IMG/VR virus record: IMGVR_UViG_3300027752_000130
Coordinates: 1 to 21,667 of that record
Direction: 5' to 3' (one strand)
DNA from: a virus
DNA length: 21,667 bases
Shown here one piece after another: positions 8,294 to 20,487 of this stretch; position 1 is the stretch's first letter, and each line of letters opens with the position of its first letter. The notes under the pieces are model-generated. The model saw only the letters and a list, made by a program, of their open reading frames with translations, was not told where the DNA came from and made no database searches. The translations under genes and the position numbers were made by a program.

Positions 8294-9271
8294 ATGTGGT
8301 TACCAGCGTTTAAAGTAATTAAAGGATTATTCGCTCTATTAGGGCAATTTACAGTAGCTGCAGATGGAGCTCCTTATGAGGGGCCTTATTATCAAACACC
8401 TCAAGGAAAAACATTTACAGGTAAAGGTCCTACAGAGTCATCACAGGAAATAGAAAAAGTACCAGATCACGAACATGATGAAGAGTTTGCTGGAGAAGGT
8501 AGTACATTCACAGCTGAAAGTTCATACCCCACTCCACAGGATTATAAAACAGGTTACTTTAAGAGATACTTTATACATGATACGAGAAACGGTGAAGTGA
8601 CAGAAGTGTTAAAAAAGAACTACGACTTATCTAAAACGTTTCTCTATATAAAAACCGGTGAAGTAAACTGGGTAGTAGAGAAACCAGTAAAAGATATTTT
8701 TAATCAAGGGTACAACTTTAAAGGAGCAGCATCACGTAATAGAGAAAACATACTTAAATTATCACTACAGGTTCCTAATGTAGATGACTACATAACCGAT
8801 TACGGTAAATTCGCAGACATAGAGTCAGATGTTGAAGGGTATGCATTTGAAGAATTACCACCAAAAGAACAAACAAGAATTATAAAGAAACAAACTCCAA
8901 CAGTTCAACAGCATCCAATTAAGAATGTAAAGCCAAGGTTTAAGCCTAAGAAAGAAAAAACCTTAAAGATAAAAAATAACTTATACACCTCTGGTGGTAG
9001 GTTTAAAGTCAAAGGCTCTACTCAATTCTATAAAGGGTTTTACCATGTACATCCAACTAAAGGAGCAATGGAAGGAGCAGTACATACAGACGAACCTCAC
9101 AGACAGTTAATACCATATAACGGTTCTACCCAGACTCCTCCCTCTGGAGGAAGTACATATTCCGGCGGTGGCGGCGGAGGTGGAGGCGGGTCTCAATACT
9201 TTGACGAAGCAAATAACAACTCAGGTAATAGCTCCCCTAATAATTATATTTCAAGAAATAACAACTATTAG
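8294..9271 (+). CDS. Virion structural protein with glycine-rich C-terminus
   Basis: A 325-aa protein. The first 24 residues are hydrophobic (MWLPAFKVIKGLFALLGQF) but I do not regard them as a proven signal peptide. A segment PYEGPYYQTPQGKTFTGKGP near the N-terminus and FYKGFYHVHPTKGAMEGAVH near residues 250-270 are motifs I have seen in virion proteins near baseplate genes of marine phages, function unknown. The middle is charged, with a Lys-rich linker (about residues 205-230). The C-terminus has nine consecutive glycines within a Gly/Ser-rich stretch (about residues 284-304), then an Asn/Ser-rich tail. It is the last gene of the structural block, 2 bases after the hub gene. A role in the baseplate or host contact is plausible but unproven. 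Confidence 0.6.
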   Translation: MWLPAFKVIKGLFALLGQFTVAADGAPYEGPYYQTPQGKTFTGKGPTESSQEIEKVPDHEHDEEFAGEGSTFTAESSYPTPQDYKTGYFKRYFIHDTRNGEVTEVLKKNYDLSKTFLYIKTGEVNWVVEKPVKDIFNQGYNFKGAASRNRENILKLSLQVPNVDDYITDYGKFADIESDVEGYAFEELPPKEQTRIIKKQTPTVQQHPIKNVKPRFKPKKEKTLKIKNNLYTSGGRFKVKGSTQFYKGFYHVHPTKGAMEGAVHTDEPHRQLIPYNGSTQTPPSGGSTYSGGGGGGGGGSQYFDEANNNSGNSSPNNYISRNNNY

Positions 9272-9316: not shown

Positions 9317-10642
9317 ATGTTTTATATAGTAGAAGAAGAATCAAAACTTAAATTATTAGAAAAGCTAATAAGCACAGGCTGCTATGTTGATATTATTAGC
9401 TCTAATGATAACTACCACCCTAAGTTAACTTTTACTGTAGCAATATATATCAAATGTTTAGACAATTCCAATGGATATATAATACCAATTAAACATGATG
9501 AGGGTATAAATGTAGATAAAAATCGTGTTATAGACATTCTAAAAAACTCCAATAAAGTATATACATTAGATAAGAAAAAATTGCTCTACCATATTAATAT
9601 ACCTGGAGTAATAGATGTATCACTCTTATATTCAATGGTGAAATACCAAAGACTGGAATTCGTAAGAGAGTCCAGCACATTAAACTACTTTTATAGGTTA
9701 CATAGACTAAATAAGAATATAAATCAAATCATTCCGATTTCGAAGTTATACGAAAGCTGTGAAAACCTATTTAATAAAGTACAACACGTAATAGACTATA
9801 CAATCCCAGATGGTTTTGAATTCTATAACCATACAGCAATATCAGTATTTTACCTTATAGAGCAAAACGGGTTAGGGATTAAACATGATTCTTTTATAGA
9901 AAACTTTAATCCACGTGAACCTCAATATAATATACAGGATAACAAAATATTAACTTACTACAACCTATATAATGCTACTTCTAGACCTACTAATGCTTTT
10001 AATTCTGTTAACTTCGCTGCTATACCTAAGAGTGCACAACACAGAGAATGTTTCATTCCAACCCAAGACTATTTTGTTGAGTTCGATTTTGATGGTTATC
10101 ACCTTAGGTTACTTTGTGATCAGATTAAGTACACACTTACCAGTGAATCTGCTCATAAACAATTAGCAAAACATTACTTTGGTACTGAGGATATTACAGA
10201 TGAACAGTATTTAGAAGCCAAACAGATTAACTTTCAAGCTATATACGGAAAGATACCCGAAGAACATAAAGACCTCAAAATATTTAAATTAATACAGGAA
10301 TTTATTGATAATATGTGGTCAGTCTATAAAGAGACAGGAATTGTATGTAATCCACAGTCTGGGAAACCCTTCACAAGTAACCTTAAAGAAATGCATCCAG
10401 CTAAATTAATGAATTATATGATGCAATCGTTGGAGACCTCAAATAATATTCTTATATTAAAAGATATCCTTAAATACTTAGTAGGTAAGAAAACTAAGTT
10501 AGTCCTATATACATATGATGCATTGCTTTTCGATTTTAGTAAAGAAGATGGCAAAGACACATTAGAAGGTATTAAGAAAATACTAGAAAAAGATAATAAA
10601 TACCCAGTAAAATTTAAATACAGTAAAGATTTAGGTTTATAA
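9317..10642 (+). CDS. Family A DNA polymerase, compact and divergent
   Basis: A 441-aa protein with the polymerase core motifs of family A in order. Motif A is FDFDGYHLRLL (residues 256-266; D257 matches Klenow D705). Motif B is KQINFQAIYG (302-311; K302, F306 and Y310 match K758, F762 and Y766). Motif C is TYDALLFD (399-406; D401 matches D882). A segment FNSVNFAAIPKSAQHRECF (228-246) fits the stretch before motif A. Three usual residues differ: Glu710 is His262, His881 is Tyr400 and Glu883 is Ala402; Arg754 may be Tyr298. The first 200 residues look like a decayed 3'-5' exonuclease domain: VDIIS at 24-28, DKKKLLYHI, then VIDVSLLY. The two catalytic aspartates are kept, so activity is plausible. 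T4-like phages usually replicate with family B gp43, so this may be an accessory enzyme. The start ATG has AAAGG 7 nt upstream. Confidence 0.8.
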   Translation: MFYIVEEESKLKLLEKLISTGCYVDIISSNDNYHPKLTFTVAIYIKCLDNSNGYIIPIKHDEGINVDKNRVIDILKNSNKVYTLDKKKLLYHINIPGVIDVSLLYSMVKYQRLEFVRESSTLNYFYRLHRLNKNINQIIPISKLYESCENLFNKVQHVIDYTIPDGFEFYNHTAISVFYLIEQNGLGIKHDSFIENFNPREPQYNIQDNKILTYYNLYNATSRPTNAFNSVNFAAIPKSAQHRECFIPTQDYFVEFDFDGYHLRLLCDQIKYTLTSESAHKQLAKHYFGTEDITDEQYLEAKQINFQAIYGKIPEEHKDLKIFKLIQEFIDNMWSVYKETGIVCNPQSGKPFTSNLKEMHPAKLMNYMMQSLETSNNILILKDILKYLVGKKTKLVLYTYDALLFDFSKEDGKDTLEGIKKILEKDNKYPVKFKYSKDLGL

Positions 10643-10664: not shown

Positions 10665-11120
10665 ATGCAATTAGTTACAGCACCAACGTTCGATTACGAT
10701 CTCGACGCAACCTATTACACCGATGATATGAGCAATAAATTGTTTTGTACATTTTCTACACAAGAAACACTAGAAGATGTACTTACTTCCATTCAGGAGA
10801 AATATAAAATAGTATACAGTAAAATATTTGTACTTTATTCAAAAAGTCAAAACGAATATATTTGTACCTATAATGTAGATTTTGGAAATGTTTCAAATTT
10901 TTTAGATAATACTATTCTAGTACATAGAAAAAAAGAAACGAATACTCTCTACACAATTAACGCTCTAAATACCCTAATTAAAGATCTTAACGACGGTAAA
11001 TTGGATTCTTCCTATAGAGTTAACTGGTCAGATTTTAAAAACTGCATACTATTAACAAAGGGTTCTGAATTACGAAGGATAAATACTAAACTTTTTAACA
11101 TAATAGAGTTGGAGAGTTAA
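10665..11120 (+). CDS. Conserved phage protein of unknown function next to gp32
   Basis: A 151-aa soluble protein with no membrane segment. The C-terminal third, NTLYTINALNTLIKDLNDG, then YRVNWSDFKNCILLTK, then LRRINTKLFNIIEL, resembles small uncharacterised proteins I recall beside gp32 or DNA-replication genes of marine T4-like phages. I cannot name a function. It lies between the family A polymerase and gp32. T4 encodes gp59 and gp33 near gp32, but I see no sequence basis to equate them. The 51 bases after its stop contain a promoter-like motif serving gp32. Confidence 0.6.
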   Translation: MQLVTAPTFDYDLDATYYTDDMSNKLFCTFSTQETLEDVLTSIQEKYKIVYSKIFVLYSKSQNEYICTYNVDFGNVSNFLDNTILVHRKKETNTLYTINALNTLIKDLNDGKLDSSYRVNWSDFKNCILLTKGSELRRINTKLFNIIELES

Positions 11121-11171: not shown

Positions 11172-11978
11172 ATGGATTTAAATGCAATCAAGGCTAAGCT
11201 AGATGCCTTAAACAACAACGGTCAGGTAGGAGAAAAAACTGACTATTCTAAGATTTTTTGGAAACCCGAACTAGGTAAACAGACTGTACGTATTGTACCC
11301 TCTGCTTTTGACCCTGCTTTTCCTTTTAAAGAGTTAAAGTTTCATTATGGAATTGGAAAATTCCCGATGGTTGCTTTATCTAACTTTGGTAAACAGGATC
11401 CTATTGAGGAATTTGTTAAGGAATTAAGAAAAACTAATGACAAAGACAATTGGTCTTTATCTGGTAAAATTAACCCTAAAACTAGAGTCTTTGCTCCTGT
11501 AGTAATAAGAGGAGAGGAAGATAAAGGAGTTAGATTATGGGGATTTGGTGTTACTATTTACAAAGCTCTTTTAGCTTTAGCTGAAGATGAGGATGTAGGT
11601 GATTTTACAGATGTAATTAACGGATGGGATTTAGTTGTAGAACAACAACAAGGAAATCCTTACCCAACTACAACTGTAAGAATTAAACCAAAACAAACAC
11701 CATTATCAGATAATAACACTTTAGTAGATTCATGGTTAAAAACACAACCAAATCCTGTAGACGTACATACTCAATATGATTACGATTATATTAAGAAACA
11801 ACTACAGAATTATCTAAACCCAGGATCAGCAGATGAGAGTACTACCGGTACTCCAGGAGGAACAGATAAAACTATGCCAGAAAGCTTAGGTCAACAAAAA
11901 ACTGACTTTACTTTGGAAACAGCTACGGCTGGCAACAAAGACACAGTTAATAAATTTGATGACTTATTCAACGAATAG
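11172..11978 (+). CDS. 32: Single-stranded DNA-binding protein, gp32-like
   Basis: A 268-aa protein with the gp32 layout. There is a basic N-terminus, MDLNAIKAKLDAL, for cooperative binding; then an OB-fold core with YSKIFWKPELGKQTVRIVPS near residue 25 and LKFHYGIG near 55; and an acidic C-terminal tail ending NKFDDLFNE that in T4 recruits recombination and replication partners. It coats single-stranded DNA at forks and in recombination. T4 gp32 holds zinc with one His and three Cys; this protein contains no cysteine, so the zinc module is absent. It has its own promoter motif and is followed 2 bases after its stop by uvsX, which acts with it in T4. The A/T-rich leader has no Shine-Dalgarno sequence. 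Confidence 0.88.
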   Translation: MDLNAIKAKLDALNNNGQVGEKTDYSKIFWKPELGKQTVRIVPSAFDPAFPFKELKFHYGIGKFPMVALSNFGKQDPIEEFVKELRKTNDKDNWSLSGKINPKTRVFAPVVIRGEEDKGVRLWGFGVTIYKALLALAEDEDVGDFTDVINGWDLVVEQQQGNPYPTTTVRIKPKQTPLSDNNTLVDSWLKTQPNPVDVHTQYDYDYIKKQLQNYLNPGSADESTTGTPGGTDKTMPESLGQQKTDFTLETATAGNKDTVNKFDDLFNE

Positions 11979-11980
11979 AT

Positions 11981-13054
11981 ATGGCAAAAAAGAAAGAGGA
12001 AGTACAAGCAAAGGCGACTGCTAGTGTGCAGAAGTCATTTAATTTAGGTAATTTCAAGAAGAAAAAAGGATATTCCTCTTCTTCTGTAAAGTTCAAAGAG
12101 CAGGGGTGGATTCCCCTCTCTAAGGCTTTTCAAGAAATTACTTCTCTACCGGGAATACCGACAGGTCATATTACCTTATTAAGAGGTCACAGTGATACTG
12201 GAAAAACAACAGCTTTACTAGAAGCAGCTGTAAACGCTCAAAAGATGGGAATTTTACCTGTCTTTGTAATTTCAGAGATGAAATGGTCATGGGAACATGC
12301 TAAAGAAATGGGCTTACAGTTTGATGAAGTAAAAGATGCTAACGGTACCGTAGTAGATTACGAAGGGCATTTCCTTTATGCTGATAGAGGTTCATTAAAC
12401 ACTATTGAAGAAGTAGCAGTCTATATGGCTGATTTAATGGACGAACAGGCAAAAGGAAACTTACCTTATGATATGTGTTTCTTTTGGGATTCAATTGGTT
12501 CTATACCTTGCGACCTATCAGTACGTTCTAATAAGAACAATAATGAATGGAATGCAGGAGCAATGTCTACTCAATTCGGTAATAACTTGAATCAAAAGAT
12601 TCTTTTATCAAGAAAAGAGAACTCACCTTATACTAATACGTTAGTTGCTATTAATAAGGTATGGACTATGAAACCGGAACACCCTATGGGTCAACCTAAA
12701 TTACAGAACAAAGGAGGAATGTCAATGTGGTACGATGCTACATTAGTTGTTACCTTTGGTAATATTACTAATCCTGGAACCTCTAAAATTAAAGCTGTTA
12801 AGAACGGACTTCAAGTGGAATTTGCTAAAAGAACTAATATTCAGATAGAAAAGAACCATATCGGAGGAGTACAGTCAAGAGGTAGAGTAGTTATGACATC
12901 TCATGGATTTATCGAAGATGATAAGAAAGCTATTGATAAGTATAGAGATGCTCATAAAGAACACTGGTTAAAACTAGTTGGTTCTGTAGACTTTGATCTA
13001 ATCGAAGAAGGAGATTTAGAAGAAACACCAATATCTCCTAATTTACTAGATTAA
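11981..13054 (+). CDS. uvsX: RecA-like recombinase UvsX
   Basis: A 357-aa RecA-fold ATPase. The Walker A motif is GHSDTGKT at residues 69-76, a catalytic-type Glu lies in FVISEMKW near residue 99, and Walker B is MCFFWDSIG with D170. The first 40 residues are Lys/Ser rich and unlike the core. UvsX forms filaments on single-stranded DNA and drives strand invasion and recombination-dependent replication with gp32. The C-terminus is acidic (DFDLIEEGDLEETP). The gene starts 2 bases after the gp32 stop, and its TAA shares the last A with the ATG of the exonuclease gene, so gp32, uvsX and the nuclease form a coupled operon. RecA itself is unlikely given the phage context and the short core. Confidence 0.85.
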   Translation: MAKKKEEVQAKATASVQKSFNLGNFKKKKGYSSSSVKFKEQGWIPLSKAFQEITSLPGIPTGHITLLRGHSDTGKTTALLEAAVNAQKMGILPVFVISEMKWSWEHAKEMGLQFDEVKDANGTVVDYEGHFLYADRGSLNTIEEVAVYMADLMDEQAKGNLPYDMCFFWDSIGSIPCDLSVRSNKNNNEWNAGAMSTQFGNNLNQKILLSRKENSPYTNTLVAINKVWTMKPEHPMGQPKLQNKGGMSMWYDATLVVTFGNITNPGTSKIKAVKNGLQVEFAKRTNIQIEKNHIGGVQSRGRVVMTSHGFIEDDKKAIDKYRDAHKEHWLKLVGSVDFDLIEEGDLEETPISPNLLD

Positions 13055-14088
13055 TGGCATACGAAAATATACTCAATAACTTAAAAGAGACCCCACCCCG
13101 TGAGTTGAACGACCATATCTTGGTCATAGATGCTATGAATATGTTAATTCGTAGCTTTTCACTCCTAAAAGCGATGAACCCTTCAGGCTCCCACATTGGT
13201 GGCATTGTCGGGTTCCTCCGCTCCTTAGGGTATGTGACTCGAATATTTGATCCAACAAGGGTAATAATAGTGTGGGACGGAAAAGGTGGATCAGCAAATC
13301 GAAAGAATGTAGATCCTAACTATAAAGCTCAAAGAGCTACAAGTAGAATAACTCATTGGGGTTTATATGATACTAAAGAGCAGGAAATGGAAGCTCTAAT
13401 AGGTCAATTGCAAAGAGTACAGGATTATTTGGAATGTCTTCCAATGCAATCTATGATGTTAGAGAAATTAGAAGCAGATGATATAATAGCATACTTAGCT
13501 AAGAAATCATCAGTATCAGACGTCAAAAAATGCACTATTGTATCTTCAGATAAAGATTTCTTACAGTTAGTGGACGATACCGTTGAGGTATATGCACCAA
13601 TAAAGAAGAAAACCTTTACAGAATCTAATATAAATGCTGAACTACAGGTTCTTCCGGAAAATTATAATGTAGTCAAAGCATTACTGGGAGATAACTCCGA
13701 TAATTTAGCAGGTGTTAAAGGATTAGGGATAAAGACTATATTATCAGAATTTCCTGACCTTATAGATAAACCAGGTACTACTTTACAGTATGTTTACGAT
13801 ATATGTGAAGCTAAATTAGAAGAAAAGAAAGTTAAAAAGATCTTTCCTAAGATTATTACTCAATGGGATAGAGTTGAAACTAATTTTCAATTAATGGACT
13901 TACATATTACTGCTTTAGATGAAAAAGAGAAGAAGTACGTTAACGATGTAATTAAAGAACCAATAGCTGACTTACAGACAGGTGCTTTTTTACGAATGTT
14001 AGAATTAGACGGCATCGAGGGTATTACTAAAAATACCGAAGCATGGCTAGAGAACTACAGAGGCTTAACTGCCTTCAAAAAGAAGTAG
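13054..14088 (+). CDS. rnh: 5'-3' exonuclease / RNase H of the FEN family
   Basis: A 344-aa FEN-type nuclease like T4 RNase H, which removes RNA primers and flaps. The acidic metal-binding residues are all visible: D26 (VIDAMNML), D75 (VWDGKGG), E140, D142 and D143 (EADDIIAYLA), D166 and D168 (SSDKDF), and D213 and D216 (GDNSDNL). The helix-hairpin-helix follows as GVKGLGIKT at 220-228. A basic stretch KAQRATSR at 91-98 fits the helical arch. The C-terminal 100 residues are poorly conserved. The start ATG overlaps the uvsX stop by one base. Codons in the first 60 residues use more G and C (for example CTC CGC TCC near 13216) than the flanking genes. Confidence 0.85.
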   Translation: MAYENILNNLKETPPRELNDHILVIDAMNMLIRSFSLLKAMNPSGSHIGGIVGFLRSLGYVTRIFDPTRVIIVWDGKGGSANRKNVDPNYKAQRATSRITHWGLYDTKEQEMEALIGQLQRVQDYLECLPMQSMMLEKLEADDIIAYLAKKSSVSDVKKCTIVSSDKDFLQLVDDTVEVYAPIKKKTFTESNINAELQVLPENYNVVKALLGDNSDNLAGVKGLGIKTILSEFPDLIDKPGTTLQYVYDICEAKLEEKKVKKIFPKIITQWDRVETNFQLMDLHITALDEKEKKYVNDVIKEPIADLQTGAFLRMLELDGIEGITKNTEAWLENYRGLTAFKKK

Positions 14089-14167: not shown

Positions 14168-15526
14168 ATGACACTAAAAGGTTTACAGCAGTACGGAAAA
14201 GGTTTTCAATTAAAAGTTTTAGGCTCACTACTAACAGATAAATCGTTCCTACTACAGATACGAGATGTTTTAAAAGAAGAGTATTTTGACGCAGATTCAC
14301 ATAAGTGGATTATAACTCAAATTATTTCTTACTTTGATAAGTATCATACTACTGTTACTATGGACGTTTTAAAGGTGGAGCTACAGAAATTAGAAAACGA
14401 AATTTTGCAGGTAGCATTAAAAGAAGAGTTACGAAACTCATACCAAGCTTCTCAAGATGATTTAGAATATGTGCAAGAAGAGTTTTTAGGATTCTGTAAG
14501 AATCAGGAAATGAAGCATGCCATACTAAGCTCAGCCGACTTATTAAAAGACGGAGATTTCGACGGTATTCGTAATATGGTAGAATCAGCTATGAAAGCTG
14601 GAATGGATAAGAATATAGGTCACGAGTTTAATAAGGATGTAGAATCTAGATATAGAACAGACTATAGACCAACTATTCCAACACCTTGGCCAGTTTTAAA
14701 CGAAAGTATTCAAGGAGGATTCGGCCCAGGAGATTTAGCAATAGTATTCGGTAACCCTGGAGGAGGTAAAAGTTGGACTTGTGTAGCAATGGCAGCACAT
14801 GCTGTAAAGCTAGGATTTAATGTTAATTATTATACTTTAGAATTAGGTGAAGACTATGTAGGAAAACGTTTCGACTGTTACTTTACTGGTTATTCAATTG
14901 ATGAAGTAAATAATCATAGAGACGAAGTACAAAAACATGTAGATAGCCTTAAGGGTAAGTTGATTATTAAAGAATACGCACCAAAAGGAGCTACAGTAAA
15001 CACAGTTAAGTCACATATACAGAAATGTATTGATATGGATCATAAACCAGACCTTATTGTTATAGATTACGTAGATTATTTAAGAGCTCCTTCTAAAGGA
15101 AAGTTTTCTGAACGTAAAGATGAAATTGATGATGTGTTTATTGCTACTAAAGGACTAGCAAAAGAGTTTAAAATCCCAGTGATAACACCCTCACAGGTAA
15201 ACAGAATGGGAGCTAAAGACTCAGTCATTGAAGGAGATAAAGCAGCAGGATCATACGATAAGATGATGGTAGCAGATATGTGTTTTTCTTTATCTAGAAT
15301 GAAAGAAGATAAAGTTCTAGGTACAGGGAGATGGCATATTATGAAGAACAGGTACGGTATGGATGGTATGACTTATAATTTAAAAATGGACACTAATAAT
15401 GGACATATAGATTTTGAAGGTCAAGCAGATATGGAGGATTTAATACCGAATGAAAACGGAGTTACAACTACCCATAAAGAGTTAGCAAAAAAGTTTTTTA
15501 GTGTTGAGCGTTTAGATACTGCATAA
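14168..15526 (+). CDS. 41: Replicative DNA helicase, DnaB-like (gp41)
   Basis: A 452-aa DnaB-family helicase. The N-terminal 140 residues are helical, like the primase-binding domain. The RecA-like motor begins TPWPVLNESIQGGFGPGDL (172-190), with Walker A GNPGGGKS at 195-202 and Walker B PDLIVIDYVDYL with D300. A Gln/Arg-containing SQVNRMG motif and FSLSRMKED follow as expected. As the fork helicase it would form a hexamer on the lagging strand and bind primase. The start is supported by AAAGG 8 nt upstream, similar to the polymerase gene at 9317; most other genes lack this. It follows a gap holding a promoter motif and precedes a long hairpin. Confidence 0.88.
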   Translation: MTLKGLQQYGKGFQLKVLGSLLTDKSFLLQIRDVLKEEYFDADSHKWIITQIISYFDKYHTTVTMDVLKVELQKLENEILQVALKEELRNSYQASQDDLEYVQEEFLGFCKNQEMKHAILSSADLLKDGDFDGIRNMVESAMKAGMDKNIGHEFNKDVESRYRTDYRPTIPTPWPVLNESIQGGFGPGDLAIVFGNPGGGKSWTCVAMAAHAVKLGFNVNYYTLELGEDYVGKRFDCYFTGYSIDEVNNHRDEVQKHVDSLKGKLIIKEYAPKGATVNTVKSHIQKCIDMDHKPDLIVIDYVDYLRAPSKGKFSERKDEIDDVFIATKGLAKEFKIPVITPSQVNRMGAKDSVIEGDKAAGSYDKMMVADMCFSLSRMKEDKVLGTGRWHIMKNRYGMDGMTYNLKMDTNNGHIDFEGQADMEDLIPNENGVTTTHKELAKKFFSVERLDTA

Positions 15527-19118: not shown

Positions 19119-19919
19119 ATGGCAAAACATGTAGTTGTAAGTCTTAGTGGAGGGATGGACTCCTCAACATTATTACTAAGAGCATTAAAAGAGTATGATA
19201 CCGTAACTGGTATATCATTCGATTATGGTCAAAAGCATAGAGTAGAGCTAGAAAGAGCTCAACAGTTAATTAACTATCTTGCTGATAATGGTCACAAAGT
19301 AAATTATCGTCAAATTCAACTAAACGGATTAGTAGACCTATTAGACTCAGCTCTAGTAGAAGGAGGAGATGATGTACCTGAAGGTCATTATGAAAATGAT
19401 AATATGAAAGAAACAGTTGTGCCTAATAGGAATAAGATGTTTGCTTCTATTACTCAAGCAGTCGCTTTATCTATAGCTAATAAATCAGAAGAAACTTGTG
19501 ATATTGCTTTAGGTATTCATGCTGGAGATCATGCAGTATACCCAGACTGTAGACAGGAGTTTAGAGATGCAGATGATGCTGCTTTTAGAGAAGGAAATTG
19601 GGATGCAGATAGAGTAGGGTACTTTACTCCTTATTTAGATACTGATAAATTTGGAATCTTACAAGATGGAGAAATACTTTGCGCTAAATTAAAAATCGAC
19701 TTTAATGAAGTTTATAAGAGAACGAATACATCATATAAGCCTTATCCTTCGGGAAATAGCGATTATAAGTCTGCTTCTAGTGTTGAGAGGATTGAGGCTT
19801 TTATTGCTCTTGGCAGAAAAGATCCCGTACAGTATGAGGATGAAACTGGAGAAGTGGATTACGAGGTAGCAGAGTCGCATGTAAAACAAATACTTGCAGA
19901 TCATGTTGGTCCATGTTAG
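19119..19919 (+). CDS. queC: QueC-like 7-cyano-7-deazaguanine synthase lacking the zinc cysteines
   Basis: A 266-aa PP-loop ATPase. The ATP site is SLSGGMDSS (8-16), followed by ISFDYGQKHRVEL (32-44) and VVPNRNKMF (100-108), all typical of QueC, which makes preQ0 from carboxy-deazaguanine with ATP and ammonia. Near the C-terminus, standard QueC has four cysteines holding zinc; the aligned stretch TNTSYKPYPSG then NSDYKSASSVER keeps the flanking TxxSY and VER sequence but replaces the cysteines by S205, D215, S218 and S221. The protein is somewhat longer than bacterial QueC (about 230 aa). Phages use preQ0 to make deazaguanine DNA, or feed tRNA modification. A QueD-like gene lies at 21451; QueE and GTP cyclohydrolase are not in the window. 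Confidence 0.85.
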   Translation: MAKHVVVSLSGGMDSSTLLLRALKEYDTVTGISFDYGQKHRVELERAQQLINYLADNGHKVNYRQIQLNGLVDLLDSALVEGGDDVPEGHYENDNMKETVVPNRNKMFASITQAVALSIANKSEETCDIALGIHAGDHAVYPDCRQEFRDADDAAFREGNWDADRVGYFTPYLDTDKFGILQDGEILCAKLKIDFNEVYKRTNTSYKPYPSGNSDYKSASSVERIEAFIALGRKDPVQYEDETGEVDYEVAESHVKQILADHVGPC

Positions 19920-20401: not shown

Positions 20402-20474
20402 TGTCTTATGGTGTAATTGGTAACACGTCTGTTTTTGGTACAGAAGAGTTCAGGTTCGAGACCTGATGAGACAA
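20402..20474 (+). tRNA. tRNA-Gln (anticodon UUG)
   Basis: A full cloverleaf: acceptor TGTCTTA/TGAGACA (7 bp, one G-U), D arm GTGT/ACAC with loop AATTGGTA, anticodon stem TCTGT/ACAGA with loop TTTTGGT (U33, anticodon UUG, reads CAA), and T arm CAGG-TTCGAGA-CCTG. The discriminator is A. The 3' CCA is not encoded, so host CCA-adding enzyme is needed. CAA is the common glutamine codon in these AT-rich genes, so the tRNA would help late translation. It lies directly after the candidate RNA and 13 bases before the next gene. Confidence 0.93.
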
Positions 20475-20487
20475 CAAATAATAAGTT

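Follow-up and report, generated by a model that had tools for sequence, protein, structure and literature searches.

The window analysed here, which is the whole of IMG/VR record IMGVR_UViG_3300027752_000130 (21,667 bases), is part of a phage genome whose replication genes are T4-like. One of its genes encodes a compact family A DNA polymerase with unusual motifs, and the question raised by the locus is what such an enzyme does in such a phage. A first-pass annotation of the sequence had proposed that it could be an accessory polymerase, for repair or for modified bases, or else a replacement for the T4 polymerase gp43. We combined homology searches, alignments, a phylogenetic tree, a structure model and comparisons of gene neighbourhoods to weigh these proposals.

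Family membership and fold of the compact polymerase

The polymerase ORF has an ATG start, is intact and encodes 441 amino acids. Its position and its domains are as follows:

9317..10642, plus strand: compact family A DNA polymerase (divPolA1), assigned from Pfam, alignments, an AlphaFold2 model and PMC11348598
Residues about 1-160 of the polymerase: 3'-5' exonuclease-like domain, predicted to be inactive
Residues about 160-205: short thumb region
Residues about 205-441: palm and fingers

The protein matches the Pfam family DNA_pol_A (PF00476) with E=3.5e-9 and 36.5 bits, above the curated cut-off of 34.3 bits. In a tblastn search against 50,697 phage records, it aligned over its full length of 441 aa, at 59% identity, with gp001 of Flavobacterium phage immuto; weaker matches were found in the uncultured 484-kb phage LR756508 and in Microcystis phage Mel-JY01, and all other matches were weak. 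Immuto gp001 is included in a family of polymerases that was recently named divPolA1 (Virol J 2024, 21:200; PMC11348598). The main text of that study reports divPolA1 from 14 phages, each of which also has a regular polymerase of family A, B or C, and predicts that the protein has an inactive exonuclease and a shortened thumb. The window polymerase resembles the divPolA1 proteins, as described there, in length, in its operon, in the loss of exonuclease residues and in the short thumb, and most of its long relatives share the presence of a companion polymerase; our sequences are new and come from uncultured viruses. We conclude that the window polymerase is a member of the published divPolA1 family and not a new kind of enzyme. 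To the known family we add a fixed residue signature that includes replacement of R754 of E. coli Pol I by Tyr, a constant partner protein and a third clade.

Hundreds of homologues keep the length and motifs of the polymerase, and the dN/dS of the gene is 0.08-0.18, with purifying selection acting more strongly on the polymerase domain than on the N-terminal region; hence, the ORF is not a chance one. These dN/dS values, together with the invariant catalytic residues, also rule out a decayed pseudogene. In a tree of family A enzymes, the compact polymerases form one clade with 100/100 support, apart from the regular PolA proteins of the immuto gp199 type, and the separate, fully supported branches rule out a recent duplication of the regular PolA. 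The gene family occurs on hundreds of phage contigs, marine as well as freshwater, and a cultivated pair, immuto and Flavobacterium sp. LMO8, exists. The third divPolA1 clade, with 12 contigs, is marine; contig CALBOT010000124.1 and our records L365-L376 belong to it. One copy from this clade lies in a metagenome-assembled genome named Candidatus Nitrosopelagicus, on a contig that is probably viral and mis-binned. We found no closer kin of the LR756508 version of the polymerase in our search of viral contigs.

An AlphaFold2 model of the polymerase (mean pLDDT 91.9) gave the Klenow fragment as its best Foldseek match (E=5.6e-18). Superposition on Pol I large fragments covers about 410 of the 441 residues, the N-terminal domain included, at Z scores of 25-27, so that the likeness to Klenow-type enzymes runs along the whole length. 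The N-terminal ~200 residues adopt the 3'-5' exonuclease fold without retaining its catalytic acids, which bears out the earlier impression of a decayed exonuclease ahead of the core. There is no conserved acid in the inferred exo I motif (residues 24-28), and K88, at the D424 position of the inferred exo II motif, is freely variable among homologues; the exo III position is uncertain, with a conserved E146 nearby. From the third exonuclease helix to R223 there are roughly 80 residues, as against 167 in E. coli, a comparison made by length and not by coordinates. The model thus suggests a truncated thumb, in line with divPolA1.

A fixed signature at the nucleotide site

Two alignments, one profile-profile and one multiple, the latter including 14 further family A enzymes (from E. 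coli, T7 and other phages, with immuto gp199 among them), gave the residue assignments; numbering follows the E. coli K-12 record. The motifs are:

10085..10102, plus strand: motif A, D257-F-D-G-Y-H262; retains D705, with His in place of E710
10208..10249, plus strand: motif B / O helix, Y298...K302...F306...Y310-G311; retains K758, F762 and Y766, with Tyr in place of R754
10514..10522, plus strand: motif C, Y400-D401-A402; retains D882, with Tyr in place of H881 and Ala in place of E883

In E. coli Pol I numbering, D257, H262, K302, F306 and Y310 correspond to D705, E710, K758, F762 and Y766, and Y400, D401 and A402 to H881, D882 and E883. The family A assignment with catalytic aspartates D257 and D401, proposed from the sequence at the outset, is upheld by the Pfam score, the alignments and the fold, and both alignments agree on His, Tyr and Ala at the E710, H881 and E883 positions. 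The first-pass annotation was therefore right about these three altered residues, but it missed a fourth, Y298 in place of R754, and it gave weight to a change at E883 that is not special. R754 of Pol I is the arginine that holds the triphosphate. Both E710 and R754 are kept in all 14 compared enzymes and in the divPolA2 protein of the barbavirus type (AUR84708). That protein is likewise a compact second family A polymerase without an exonuclease and with H881 replaced (by Phe), but it differs in these two retained residues, in an unrelated N-terminal domain and in not being part of a replication operon. Relative to E. coli Klenow, the window enzyme shares the overall fold, exonuclease-like domain included, and keeps D705, K758, F762, Y766, R668, Q849 and D882, whereas E710, R754, H881 and E883 are replaced and the exonuclease acids are lost.

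We counted conservation over 221 unique full-length homologues, with identities down to about 26-28%. R223, Y298, K302, F306, Y310, Y400 and D401 are identical in every one, and D257 and H262 in 220, the remaining sequence having a gap. Position 402 is Ala in 182 and Ser in 39. The E883 position is occupied by Ser, Ala or Gln in regular polymerases from several other phages, and the active polymerase of Thermus phage Tt72 has Ser (PMC9324360); since this site varies among ordinary phage enzymes, its change to Ala or Ser means little. Mutants of the Tt72 polymerase allow the sites to be compared: alanine at the D705 or D882 equivalent left 4% activity, whereas alanine at the E710 or E883 equivalent left 35% or 76%, respectively (PMC9324360). 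Thus, divPolA1 alters the more dispensable sites and keeps the indispensable ones. The His/Tyr/Tyr residues are as fixed as the catalytic set beside them, and hence form a signature; judged by these residues, divPolA1 is probably catalytically active, its nucleotide site having been remodelled. The main text of PMC11348598 states neither the E710H/R754Y/H881Y signature nor the constant partner, and the literature that we searched contained no report of divPolA1 biochemistry.

Two other readings of the active site have to be set against this one. The protein might be catalytically dead, a polymerase-like structure that tethers gp32, the helicase or the template. Around the nucleotide, four residues of Pol I (E710, R754, H881 and E883) are changed and the exonuclease is dead, and the joint loss of R754 and E710 could cripple catalysis; however, the metal-binding aspartates and the Lys, Phe and Tyr of the fingers are invariant, and a scaffold would not need them. 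We regard a dead protein as quite unlikely. Alternatively, the enzyme might be tolerant of RNA, or a maker of primers, with the change of the steric-gate Glu to His allowing it to accept ribonucleotides. E710 with F762 is a known steric gate (PMC9324360), and the family has His almost without exception at a position that is Glu in the divPolA2 protein and in every one of the 14 compared family A enzymes. On the other side, F762 and Y766 are kept, histidine is itself bulky, and a DnaG-type primase is encoded separately in immuto, so that we rate RNA tolerance as unlikely too, if slightly less so than a dead scaffold. Our own reading, from alignment and model, is of a Klenow-like enzyme that appears to have lost its proofreading residues, part of its thumb and the usual residues for the incoming nucleotide, while keeping the metal aspartates and the Lys and Tyr of the fingers.

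The replication operon and a constant partner protein

The polymerase gene is followed by genes for a small partner protein, a gp32-like protein, a recombinase, a 5'-3' exonuclease, a helicase and a ribonucleotide reductase, in that order. Those that belong with it in one operon are:

10665..11120, plus strand: small partner protein of 151 aa with the motif HxKxxxNTxYTxNxLN, always downstream of the polymerase
11172..11978, plus strand: gp32-like single-strand DNA-binding protein (Pfam gp32, E=1.1e-9)
11981..13054, plus strand: UvsX/RecA-type recombinase (PHROG UvsX, E=4.5e-16)
13054..14088, plus strand: stand-alone 5'-3' exonuclease (Pfam 5_3_exonuc_N, E=8e-33)
14168..15526, plus strand: gp41/DnaB-type replicative helicase (PHROG DnaB-like helicase, E=1.6e-78; match to T4 gp41, E=7e-27)

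An operon of polymerase, partner, gp32, recombinase, exonuclease and helicase is common to the window, immuto, Mel-JY01 and LR756508. The 5'-3' exonuclease is present as a single copy in 12 of the 13 relatives tested. On the 5' side of the polymerase lie genes that carry tail and baseplate annotation in the immuto genome. A protein encoded at 8294-9271 (plus strand) has a long glycine-rich C-terminal stretch and no assigned function; it shares 30% identity with its immuto counterpart over half its length, the values for neighbouring genes being far higher. The window also holds a tRNA-Gln gene with anticodon ttg (20402-20475, plus strand).

The small partner is a constant companion of the polymerase. 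Among the 50,697 phage records, it occurs in the same six as the compact polymerase (E < 1e-20). On contigs, the partner follows all 273 polymerases with at least 1.5 kb of downstream sequence, and a polymerase precedes all 289 partners with at least 1.5 kb upstream; with duplicates removed, the count is 188 of 188 for polymerases followed by 2.4 kb or more. The partner is kept despite intervening genes in LR756508 and in the third clade, where 1-1.8 kb separate it from the polymerase. Shared descent could explain part of this linkage, and we used the operon recombinase as a control for shared lineage. With the window protein as query, the recombinase was not found in Mel-JY01 or LR756508, where the same search finds both polymerase and partner. 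Since the regular polymerase is swapped as well, the pair of polymerase and partner is more constant than its surroundings. The partner is probably a dedicated subunit of the polymerase, physical contact being suggested by the linkage, and perhaps makes up for the short thumb.

The HxKxxxNTxYTxNxLN motif of the partner is very conserved. Searches of Pfam and PHROG assigned the protein to no named family and no usable PHROG, and the PDB held no sequence relative. Its structure model is poor (pLDDT 62.6) and gave no Foldseek match below E=0.2. The T4 replication proteins compared with it, gp33, gp45, gp59, gp62, RegA and others, gave no match and were rejected as identities for it. The partner gene and the fixed His/Tyr/Tyr substitutions are concrete targets for further work.

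The window further carries a QueC-like gene of the 7-deazaguanine pathway (19119-19919, plus strand), and the first-pass annotation had connected the polymerase with such bases. Were divPolA1 adapted to copy or insert modified 7-deazaguanine nucleotides, the occurrence of QueC in this window and in each of the five relatives tested from its clade would make sense, but the polymerase is present without any QueC match in LR756508 and in the complete genome of Mel-JY01, and in six further contigs of the Mel-JY01 clade QueC is absent or a fragment below the family cut-off. Moreover, the modification of immuto is assigned to DpdA, an enzyme that exchanges bases on finished DNA, after synthesis. A role in copying or inserting modified bases is thus highly improbable.

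Companion polymerases and the role of divPolA1

We examined 13 long relatives from the clade of the window. The compact polymerase is present in all 13 and a full-length PolA in 10, immuto among them, the three without one being shorter fragments; a family B polymerase was found in none of them. In immuto, the second, full-length family A polymerase is gp199 (777 aa). Enzymes of the gp199 type share their family and their genomes with divPolA1, but they are 777-792 aa long, have intact exonuclease acids, keep E710 and R754, have Leu at 762 and form a separate branch. By contrast, in the Mel-JY01 clade a PolB, without any other PolA match, occurs in six of eight long contigs and in Mel-JY01 itself, and LR756508 has PolB pieces and a PolC beside divPolA1. 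In the 12 incomplete contigs of the third marine clade, we saw no regular polymerase, and in the window, a 21.7-kb fragment, the phage's own companion polymerase is not seen. The companion polymerase is therefore of family A in the clade of the window phage and of family B in another clade. These results speak against a replacement of gp43 in this phage clade and for an accessory polymerase, the compact gene lying in a replication operon of phages whose relatives carry a second, full-length enzyme.

We propose, as an explanation that is on balance probable, that divPolA1 serves as an accessory polymerase, catalytically active but without proofreading, which has its own dedicated partner and would carry out short synthesis beside a full-length polymerase for bulk synthesis (of family A in the clade of the window). 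It would work with the gp32-like protein, the helicase and the stand-alone 5'-3' exonuclease of the phage, filling the gaps left when the exonuclease takes off RNA primers, as in Okazaki fragment maturation, or else repair gaps. The 5'-3' exonuclease is a candidate functional partner for primer removal, and the two genes together would amount to a split Pol I; since this exonuclease is common in phages, its presence supports the idea weakly. The 151-aa downstream protein would be the dedicated subunit, perhaps compensating for the short thumb.

A central role in the replisome, a ribonucleotide-tolerant enzyme and a dead scaffold are possible alternatives, in falling order. In the first of these, divPolA1 would be a central component, for example a lagging-strand or primer-extending enzyme, and the swappable regular polymerase would be the less essential one. 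DivPolA1, partner, gp32, exonuclease and helicase are indeed constant while the family of the regular polymerase and the recombinase change, and the authors of PMC11348598 make a similar point in its main text, noting the conserved replication context of divPolA1 and describing what the regular polymerases do as less obvious, a view compatible with a central role of divPolA1. However, lack of proofreading and a short thumb fit short synthesis better than the copying of a 160-kb genome, and the regular enzymes, such as immuto gp199, retain their exonuclease motifs. We therefore hold a central role to be rather unlikely. More speculatively, and with a similarly low expectation, divPolA1 and the 151-aa protein might form a two-subunit polymerase with new active-site chemistry, in which the His steric gate and the Tyr in place of the triphosphate-binding Arg alter nucleotide use (of ribonucleotides or on a damaged template), the partner replaces the thumb, and the module stays conserved while the main polymerase is swapped among families A, B and C. 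The divPolA1 family may help to explain how phages can exchange their main polymerase between unrelated families while the rest of the replication operon is retained.

The companion genes themselves show some irregularities. LR756508 (our record L115, 484 kb) seems to have polymerases of three types: divPolA1, a family B enzyme in two ORFs about 4-6 kb apart (260623-261162 and 266583-266900), and a PolC-type alpha subunit (47415-48068). A family B polymerase at 53555-55532 (minus strand) of contig G015 (from L244) is likewise split, into frames of 610 and 306 aa. The Leu of immuto gp199 (37898-40231 of L082) aligns with F762 of the E. coli enzyme, a residue considered in studies of phage replication style. 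Contig G001 (from L038, 167,696 bases) carries two full-length PolA genes at its ends (1101-2327 and 166339-167562), which are 92% identical in amino acids and 87% in nucleotides and reflect either a duplication or a composite assembly.
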